DNA from: Prevotella sp.
GTDB taxonomy: Bacteria; Bacteroidota; Bacteroidia; Bacteroidales; Bacteroidaceae
DNA: 39,419 nt
Reading direction: 5' to 3'
NCBI GenBank assembly: GCA_017449025.1
Contig: JAFSKJ010000055.1
Span: 1 to 39,419 of the forward strand
Program-made: the position numbers and the translations under genes
Shown here: piece by piece, positions 23,980-39,091 of the stretch
How positions within the stretch are numbered: position 1 is the stretch's first letter
Layout of the letters: the number at the start of each line of letters is the position of its first letter
Notes under the pieces: model-generated
Databases searched by the model: none
What the model was told of the DNA's origin: nothing
The model's input: only the letters and a program-made list of their open reading frames with translations

Positions 23980-23983
23980 TCTG

Positions 23984-24058
23984 TGGGCGCTGACGGATTC
24001 GAACCGCCGACCCTCTGCTTGTAAGGCAGATGCTCTAAACCAGCTGAGCTAAGCGCCC
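23984..24058 (-). tRNA. tRNA-Val (anticodon TAC)
   Basis: 75 nt on the minus strand, identical in sequence to the gene at 21683-21757, with the same cloverleaf and TAC anticodon. It has its own promoter box (24077-24084) and terminator. Confidence 0.95.
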
Positions 24059-24076
24059 TTTTTTCGTAAGCGGGTG

Positions 24077-24084
24077 CAAAGGTA
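24077..24084 (-). promoter_or_regulatory. -7 box for the second tRNA-Val gene
   Basis: On the minus strand TACCTTTG lies 18 nt before the mature tRNA 5' end, in the same context (GCAAAGGTAC on the plus strand) as at the first tRNA-Val. Confidence 0.7.
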
Positions 24085-24171: not shown

Positions 24172-24293
24172 AGTGGCACTTTACAATCTTAAAGTGCCAC
24201 TCCTCATCATGCATGTTTCACGCCATTTTTTATGAAGAATTTACGTGTCAGAGGTGTCAGTGGTTTTTGCTTATTTCGTACTCGCGCTCGAGG
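24172..24293. repeat. Dispersed palindromic element, copy A
   Basis: A perfect 12-bp hairpin AGTGGCACTTTA (24172-24183), 6-nt loop, TAAAGTGCCACT (24190-24201) is followed by a conserved tail: GCATGTTTCACGCCATTTTT (24211-24230), TGTCAGAGGTGTCAGT (24246-24261) and a TCGTACTCGCGCTCGAGG end. Both long strings recur exactly at 38868-38887 and 38905-38920. It fills most of the 294-nt gap between the tRNA-Val and the mutL stop. A further GGATGTGG/CCACATCC hairpin follows at 24292-24317. Confidence 0.85.
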
Positions 24294-24352: not shown

Positions 24353-26164
24353 CTAAACTATCTCGGACTTGAGCGGTGATGAGTTACGCCCAAGCAGATG
24401 TTCAATATCGGCATGGGGAAGAATGGCAAGGATGCACTTGCCATCAGGTGTATAGTTTACATTTGAACATGCAAACAGCTGATTGACGACAGCTTCCATC
24501 TCATCGTTGGATAGCACCTGGCCTTGAGGTATGGCTGCGCTGCGCGCCAGGCTAAGTGCCAGGCGGTGGTGAATCTCGTCGATGGCAGTCACCCCCTCTT
24601 CGGTAGCAGCCGCCACCATCTGCCCGATGAGTGCGACAGGGTTCAGCCCCTCTGTGCCGGCTGGCACGCCGTTGATGGCATAGCTGTTGCCGCCAAGGTC
24701 TGAGAGGTCGAAGCCCACAGCAATGAGTTCTGGAACGATTCTCTCTAACACCACCGTATCTGACGGCGGAAACTGTACCACCTCAGGGAAGAGCACTCTC
24801 TGTGTGCGTGCGTTCTTGTTTTTCAGGGCCGTGAGCATGCGCTCGTAGCGTATTCGCACGTCGGCGCGGTGCTGGTCGATAATCATCAGCCCAGACTTCA
24901 CGGCAGTCATGATGTAGCAGCCCTTGTACTGGTAATGCACAGGAGATTTATCGGAAATCATGCGCTCAGCCTCTGTCTGCTCCGGTGCGGGAAACAATTG
25001 CTCCCAGTCTGCCGGAGGCGCTGTGCGAGCCGTGCGGTCTGTCCTGCCGCTTCCCGCAAATGGGTTATAGTCAGGGTTGTAGTTCACATTCGGCATCACA
25101 ATTTTGTTGCGCTCTGGGTTGAAGACAGGTATGTCTGGACGCCCTTCAGTATCGAAGTCGATGGCCGACACCTCGCAGAACTGTCCTATGGCATCCTTGA
25201 CGGCAGCCGACAGTATCTGGAAGATGGCCTGTTCGTTCTCAAACTTAATCTCGGTCTTCGTGGGATGAATATTCACGTCGATGTCAGTAGGCGCAACGTC
25301 GAAATACACGAAATATGGCACCTGCATGCCCTCAGCCACTAACCGTTCGTATGCATTCTGCACTGCCCTGTGGAAATACGGGTGCTTCATGTAGCGCCCA
25401 TTCACAAAGAAGCACTGGTGGGCGCCTTTCTTCTTGGCTGCCTCCGGCTTACCCACAAAGCCACTGATGCTACAGATGGCCGTATCTACAGCTATTGGCA
25501 GGATGTCCTGATTGAACCTCTTGCCGAAGACGTCGCAGATGCGCTGTCGCAGTGAGGCGGCTTTCAGTTCGAGCAGCACAACATCGTTGCTATGGAGCGA
25601 AAAGGCTATGTCGGGGTACACGAGAGCAATGCGCTCGAAAGCCACCAACACATTGTTAAGCTCTGTAGCATTGGTTTTCAAGAACTTACGTCTTGCCGGA
25701 ACATTGAAAAAGAGGTTCGTGACTTTAAAGTTGCAGCCCACGGGACAGGAGGTCATTTCCTGGCTCACCACCTTCGAGGCCGAAAGAACTAAGCGCGTGC
25801 CCAGCTCGCTGCCTTCCATGCGGGTGACCAGCTCCACCTGCGACACGGCAGCTATCGAGGGGAGTGCCTCGCCGCGAAAGCCCATGGTGTGAAGCGAGAA
25901 GAGGTCGTCGGCCTGCCGTATCTTCGACGTGGCGTGGCGTTCGAAAGCCAGTCGTGCGTCGGTGTCAGACATGCCCCTTCCGTCGTCAATGACTTGTATC
26001 GAAGTGCGTCCGGCATCAACCACCAACACGTGGATGTTCTTTGCTCCAGCGTCGACGGCATTCTCAACCAGCTCCTTGATTACCGAAGCAGGGCGCTGTA
26101 TGACTTCTCCTGCCGCTATCTGGTTAGCCACAGAGTCGGGAAGCAACTGTATGACGTCACTCAT
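24353..26164 (-). CDS. mutL: DNA mismatch repair protein MutL
   Basis: A 603-residue mismatch-repair protein that links MutS recognition to strand incision. The N-terminal GHKL ATPase has [24 protein letters not shown] and [13 protein letters not shown] in order (about 30-110), then the transducer domain to about 330. The C-terminal dimerisation domain has [14 protein letters not shown] near residue 430. The endonuclease motif of B. subtilis-type MutL is DQHAxxExxxxE. Here the Ala is Arg and the first Glu is Val, and no CPHGRP-like motif is visible near the C-terminus. It may therefore lack nicking activity. It is the last gene of the guaB-to-mutL run, 5 nt after the OstA-like gene. Confidence 0.93.
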
Positions 26165-38757: not shown

Positions 38758-38952
38758 CGTGAAACATTGAGGCTTCATCCGTAGAGTGGCACTTTACGGC
38801 GCTGGAGTGGCACTTATTTGAAATTAAGTGCCACTCCACGGTCGTAAAGTGCCACTCTACGGATGAGGCATGTTTCACGCCATTTTTATGAACCAAATTT
38901 TACATGTCAGAGGTGTCAGTAAAAAAGTGTCATCTCGTACGCGAGCGTGAGG
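38758..38952. repeat. Dispersed palindromic element, copy B, with giant hairpin
   Basis: Three nested perfect stems: CGTGAAACAT (38758-38767) with ATGTTTCACG (38870-38879), a 24-bp stem (38775-38798 with 38843-38866) and TGGAGTGGCACTTA (38803-38816) with its complement (38825-38838), closing on an 8-nt loop. That is 48 paired positions. The core unit AGTGGCACTTTA is the same as in copy A (24172-24201), here arranged as a double inverted pair. The conserved tail follows: GCATGTTTCACGCCATTTTT (38868-38887), TGTCAGAGGTGTCAGT (38905-38920) and TCGTACGCGAGCGTGAGG. Confidence 0.9.
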
Positions 38953-38962
38953 TGGAAATGCC

Positions 38963-39049
38963 CCAGAGAGGCATGATAGGAGTAGCCAGCCATACAGCCG
39001 TACCTAAGGCACGGCTGTATGGCTGGCTACCCCTATCTGATGCCTCTGG
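38963..39049. repeat. Second long hairpin after the pullulanase gene
   Basis: GTAGCCAGCCATACAGCCGT (38982-39001) pairs perfectly with 39011-39030 around a 9-nt loop. An outer arm AGAGGCAT (38967-38974) pairs with ATGCCTCT (39040-39047), with an imperfect GATAGG/CCTATC part in between. It is unrelated in sequence to copy B. Confidence 0.85.
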
Positions 39050-39091
39050 CATCGTCTTCCTACAGATGTGTATAACGAATATCTATTAATC

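Follow-up and report, generated by a model that had tools for sequence, protein, structure and literature searches.

The MITEs and the Correia-type elements are short, non-coding sequences that have inverted-repeat arms and occur in many copies, and in Neisseria and Haemophilus pairs of the uptake sequence, which is found about once per kilobase, serve as terminators. The BOX elements have a modular layout, boxA-boxB(n)-boxC. The BOX elements of Streptococcus pneumoniae are small interspersed repeats, rich in secondary structure and hardly found outside a single species and its close relatives, and are seen as slow parasitic elements (PMC3049150), and the REP/BIME repeats are abundant extragenic palindromes, found in both orientations, with a suggested role in protein binding and transcription termination (PMC2817692). 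Among the literature matches listed, we noticed no paper on the repeat described below.

In this report, we analyze a repeat that occurs twice in a window of 39,419 nucleotides (the whole of one contig, JAFSKJ010000055.1, designated C102) from a 3.50-Mb Prevotella assembly of 134 contigs that is 80.65% complete. Like the MITEs and Correia-type elements, it is short, non-coding, armed, and multicopy. Its inverted arms, CGTGAAACAT and ATGTTTCACG, which may be a half-match to the ParB site parS, are present in many copies, are longer in some, and are missing from part of the arrays. It differs from those elements in that its arms and tails are combined in various ways, and in that no target-site duplication was evident by eye in the few copies inspected and no autonomous partner or parent transposase was found in a search for PF01797. 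As with the uptake sequences, a shared short word makes the stem of 3'-end hairpins, but the Prevotella word is present in at most 182 exact copies per genome in the 22 genomes counted. By description, the repeat resembles BOX in being small, structured, interspersed, modular, and largely limited to a species, with a variable number of core units (two to six boxes); unlike BOX, its core is an array of palindromes with a 21-bp period that also stands alone in other species of the genus. It is abundant, extragenic, palindromic, and present in both orientations, as REP/BIME are (PMC2817692), but it has no repeat-flanked rayt gene in this genome. By analogy, the element appears to work most like the BOX or BIME repeats. 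With moderate confidence, we regard it as a non-autonomous, modular, MITE- or BOX-like intergenic repeat that has multiplied in this lineage and is built on an older stem-loop array of Prevotella gene 3' ends.

The Two Copies in the Window

Copy A begins with a two-box array (locus L005, positions 24172-24201, no strand assigned) that reads AGTGGCACTTTA-CAATCT-TAAAGTGCCACT, in other words a perfect 12-bp stem with a 6-nt loop whose boxes are 21 bp apart. It is followed on the plus strand by an outer arm, TGTTTCACGCC, with the ATTTTT run of the family (24211-24230), and then by tail A (24242-24287), which consists of TACGTGTCAGAGGTGTCAGT and a T-rich stretch up to a CGTAC..GCG end. Repeat coverage starts at 24172, ends at about 24287, and is zero after that. 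Copy B (38758-38946) is the fuller copy, with a full four-box hairpin at 38758-38880 (boxes at 38785, 38806, 38826, and 38847) and a tail A like that of copy A at 38901-38946, both on the plus strand. The copy B hairpin (133 nt, -57.4 kcal/mol as DNA, z = -15) is far larger than that of copy A, and the folding of copy A as RNA (141 nt) is non-significant (z = -1.5). Terminator-like sites are listed in neither copy, and copy B had no match in the plasmid collection.

The two copies share GCATGTTTCACGCCATTTTT, which is exact at 24211-24230 and 38868-38887 (two matches in the window against 0.01 expected), and TGTCAGAGGTGTCAGT, which is exact at 24246-24261 and 38905-38920, in identical order. 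Taken alone, TGTCAGAGGTGTCAGT is weak evidence within the window, as 7 of 100 shuffles also gave two matches at up to three mismatches. The perfect 12-bp hairpin near mutL and the exact strings of 20 and 16 nt in the same order in both copies had been noticed in an earlier, sequence-only reading, and both observations are confirmed. Copy A, a 12-bp hairpin plus a tail to about 24287, is a truncated member of a genome-wide family.

A Modular Family Dispersed in One Genome

With up to three mismatches, the 20-mer was found at 37 places in the genome (0 for the reversed control), some of which are the two arms of one hairpin, and with up to two mismatches, the 16-mer from the tail was found at 27 places (control, 3). 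A covariance model built from 30 hairpins gave 150 matches on both strands of the 3.5-Mb genome, and most places are counted twice because the hairpin is palindromic. Among the fetched loci there are 83 distinct arrays of two to six boxes, 62 of them with four. These arrays are distinct by sequence; ten pairs have at least 50 bp of flank in common, and the flank-sharing pairs whose contigs were checked lie on different contigs. The outer flanks differ between copies, and the arms and tails are common to them. A genome search therefore returns many further copies, and the dispersed family that the sequence-only reading had preferred to a random palindrome is real.

The modules follow a rough order, from box B or a conserved left stretch to the hairpin and then to tail A, but they are also found singly or in other combinations, and neither box A nor box B is always accompanied by a hairpin. 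Twenty tails A lie on 19 arrays (22 rows were compared, two of which were another repeat), and by our reading, 4 of the 15 copies that could be scored have the interior of the hairpin in the opposite orientation to tail A. At one locus (L027, C64:41227), the inner stem-loop is flipped with respect to the outer spacers of its own hairpin. At L177, L234, and L235, arrays also sit inside a second repeat family with GGGTGACAGAGGGTGACAG units. Box B, TTCAACCGCACAGCACG, is a further module with 97 places in the genome (control, 0). Many of these point into the contig from a position 110-240 bp from its end and follow small hairpins that vary (for example C9:140, C21:121, C34:115, and C134:124), and box B seems to mark the edge of longer, assembly-breaking repeats. 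Box B also lies within several hundred bases of two of the four Y1-transposase matches of this genome (L275 and L279).

The full element has a narrow distribution. Under strict filters, with at most 11 candidates scored per genome, the covariance model matched 10 of 299 genomes of the genus, and strong full-hairpin matches (E below 1e-20) were obtained in only two of the 299, this genome and G260. One G260 locus is 99.8% identical to this genome over 1671 bp, the other is 100% identical over 3020 bp, and the listed contamination of G260 is 6%; given this near-identity over 1.7 and 3.0 kb, the G260 copies are probably contamination. Tail A, with up to three mismatches, has 25 matches here and is numerous in this genome only; elsewhere it is scattered over 31 other genomes of 269, with two or three mismatches, and the reversed control gave about 40 genomes. 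Judged from these distributions, the arms and tails look specific to the species, and the array looks more widespread. The exact 22-mer TGTTTCACGCCATTTTTATGAA had no match in a genome-contig collection that may leave this genome out.

The Palindrome Array in Other Genomes

In the core of the hairpin, the 11-bp palindrome AAGTGSCACTT is repeated in tandem. When boxes no more than 24 bp apart are grouped, all 230 of the 230 adjacent spacings in this genome are exactly 21 bp. Using the query AAGYGSCRCTT-N9..12-AAGYGSCRCTT, which permits periods of 20-23 bp, we found that 43 of 398 Prevotella genomes, this one included, carry bare arrays whose period is 21 or 22 bp; the control gave none. The richest genomes of the genus are G247 (106 pairs), G000 (this genome, 87), G297 (57), G351 (35), G041 (33), and G169 (29). 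In the family draw, 8 of 301 genomes have arrays, again with this one included (37 in G502), and in the order draw 3 of 277, likewise counting this genome. A two-box array is also present in three stretches of viral contigs, which bear little resemblance to the copies of this genome. A repeat family of one species is thereby tied to a motif that is common to dozens of Prevotella genomes.

The exact box is present 182 times in this genome, 137 times in G351, 74 times in G169, and 57 times in G278, and each of the 12 genomes used as negatives has 0-4 copies. In some array-bearing genomes it is scarce (G247, 4; G041, 1; G361, 6; G297, 8) because their consensus differs. Among the places listed for G278, several single boxes are 44 or 88 bp apart, as if the units in between had decayed.

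Placement Relative to Genes

Of the 38 loci scored in the relatives, 33 are closer to the 3' end of a gene, at a median distance of 28 bp, and the neighboring genes are convergent in 16, tandem in 20, and divergent in 2. Loci in this count are the best matches returned and not a random draw, genes are open reading frames of at least 90 codons, and identical arrays are counted once; 8 loci inside open reading frames and 2 edge loci were excluded, and five were skipped (two of this genome, one of G260, and two repeats of the same array). In this genome, 48 of the 83 arrays could be scored by the same 90-aa calling, after exclusion of 19 edge arrays and 16 inside short open reading frames, and of these 14 lie between convergent genes, 18 between tandem genes, and 16 between divergent genes. 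The median distance is 128.5 bp to a 3' end and 218.5 bp to a 5' end. In 33 of 38 cases, the arrays of the relatives lie where an intrinsic terminator would be expected, just past the stop codon, and those of this genome also lie away from 3' ends; the 3'-end bias is mostly lost here. The contrast fits a 3'-end feature that was turned into a dispersed repeat in this genome, with gene contexts taken from a simple and crude calling of open reading frames (70 or 90 aa).

A directional terminator was considered and rejected, since U-tracts are not enriched downstream: in 33 hand-oriented loci of the relatives, T-runs were present downstream in 14 and on the opposite side in 13.

Stem Pairing, Phased Sites, and the Possible Origin of the Repeat

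Compensatory change gives different answers for the simplest and the larger arrays. From the matches listed, and with this genome and G260 left out, 98 pairs of boxes were taken, of which 60 were taken as isolated, the matches listed nearby including no third exact box (degenerate boxes may adjoin). In these 60 pairs the box centers are complementary in 44 (mean after shuffling, 29.9), and Watson-Crick pairs are present at 101 of the 120 outer Y-R positions (mean after shuffling, 74.6). The excess persists with one pair per genome (30 genomes), with means of 23.4 of 30 against 15.3 for the centers and 50.1 of 60 against 35.0 for the Y-R positions. In the larger arrays of the relatives, pair covariation is absent (centers, 14 of 38 against 17.7; Y-R, 45 of 76 against 49.0), and the paired box centers of the four-box arrays here covary no more than composition predicts. 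Because isolated pairs covary and larger arrays do not, we conclude that the two-box form, the simplest one, is a stem that was selected or inherited, and that the larger arrays resemble phased sites or tandem duplications more closely. Compensatory changes are found in the isolated two-box arrays of relatives and not, beyond composition, in the family of this genome.

The larger arrays lend some weight to a different explanation, which we hold to be possible but unlikely: the boxes would be operator sites, phased at two helical turns, of a putative dimeric DNA-binding protein of a nucleoid, silencing, or regulatory type, and the hairpin would be a by-product. The period agrees with this, being strictly 21 or 22 bp and single-valued in 13 of the 14 genomes with at least two isolated pairs (22 bp in 37 of the 60 pairs, 21 bp in 22, and 23 bp in one), although tandem duplication can also give an exact period. 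The boxes are conserved and the spacers variable, and in G322, G662, and some loci of G169 all the boxes of an array have one orientation. The excess of exact boxes over the 12 negatives in this genome, G351, G169, and G278 points the same way, but G247 and G041, with their differing consensus, bear arrays with hardly any exact box. The covariation of isolated two-box arrays as stems argues against the operators, the location behind stop codons is unusual for them, and no cognate protein was identified. More speculatively, and with slightly less conviction, one may imagine an undescribed chromosomal address system of Prevotella, in which AAGYGSCRCTT, phased at two turns, would be bound cooperatively at gene 3' ends by a putative lineage-specific protein and would here have been packaged and spread through intergenic DNA as a dispersed repeat.

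A transcribed, structured RNA with a defined function is improbable. The hairpin of copy B is strong, but in the window nothing except two tRNAs scores above the Rfam gathering score, only 2 of 26 pairs in an RNAalifold alignment of this genome's family are changed on both sides, the family lacks covariation in this genome, and the interior of the hairpin can be inverted against tail A, as described above. The three possibilities named by the sequence-only reading thus part company: a MITE-like element fits, a protein-binding array is possible by virtue of the periodic boxes, and a conserved structured RNA is not supported within the family. Mobilization of REP/BIME elements by a RAYT (Y1 tyrosine) transposase is very improbable, and we rejected the link: the 83 distinct arrays are indeed high-copy extragenic palindromes in both orientations and the genome has four PF01797 (Y1 transposase) matches, three of them over the cut-off, but none of the four loci has an array in its fetched flanks, PF01797 over the cut-off shows no association with arrays in 22 genomes (5 of 10 array-bearing against 7 of 12 array-free), and it has no match in the array-rich G247, G297, and G351.

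We return to the preferred reading, a modular intergenic repeat built on an older array. The older array would be a stem-loop that works in both directions at the 3' ends of genes, forming the ends of transcripts or protecting the transcripts. In this genome, some enzyme or recombination process may have captured the array between arms and tails, after which the captured array would have been copied into intergenic DNA. The strict helical period, the 3'-end placement, and the covariation make the function open to direct tests in Prevotella cultures. As a binding site, the array would point to an undescribed DNA-binding protein; as a stem-loop, it would point to a shared 3'-end element that has become a dispersed repeat.

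The mutL Junction

As the sequence-only reading had it, copy A lies 3' to mutL and upstream of a tRNA promoter. The mutL gene (minus strand) ends at 24353, tRNA-Val (23983-24058, minus strand) starts 294 bp past its stop, and the repeat makes up only 116 bp of the junction. Upstream of tRNA-Val, TACCTTTGCA (24075-24084, minus strand), a Bacteroidetes-type -7 element, is kept with small changes in 19 short junctions of relatives. The MutL proteins of the relatives compared at the junction stop or nearly stop at ...EHLLG, and here eleven extra codons and a stop follow that end (24353-24388, minus strand). Most of the named MutL relatives belong to Prevotella and Prevotellaceae; they are largely uncultured, and many come from ruminants.

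In 80 relatives, tRNA-Val lies 88-130 bp past MutL in 19, 868-1536 bp in 23, and further in 4, and it is absent from the fetched flank in 34; several of the relatives closest by MutL identity have the junction of 868-1536 bp. An insertion of about 230 bp at mutL, which had been deduced from 21 hand-picked relatives (19 with 88-130 bp, the other two with 868 and 1293 bp), was withdrawn because 23 of the 80 relatives have the long junction. No clean empty site was found among the 80. Given two arrangements in the relatives, the 294-bp gap could reflect either an insertion or a loss, so that copy A may have been inserted at mutL or the intervening stretch may have been lost. The 60-70 bp beside the tRNA align best with L314, which has a junction of 868 bp. 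In the longer junctions inspected (L306, L307, L310, and L322), an open reading frame of about 400 codons, absent here, lies between mutL and tRNA-Val, and its N-terminus resembles MKK...ASMAQDA or MKK...AAAQDE.

Other Repeats near the Contig End

An extra box, AGTGGCACTT, lies near the contig end (39401-39410, plus strand). A second dispersed hairpin repeat (GTAGCCAGCCATACAGCC... / ...GGCTGTATGGCTGGCTAC) occupies 38960-39060; about 20-40 fetched loci of the same genome, some of which overlap mutually, cover most of its length. Between 39090 and 39165 there is also an inverted repeat of about 30 bp around TAGGGACTTACTTTATGTATGTCCG.
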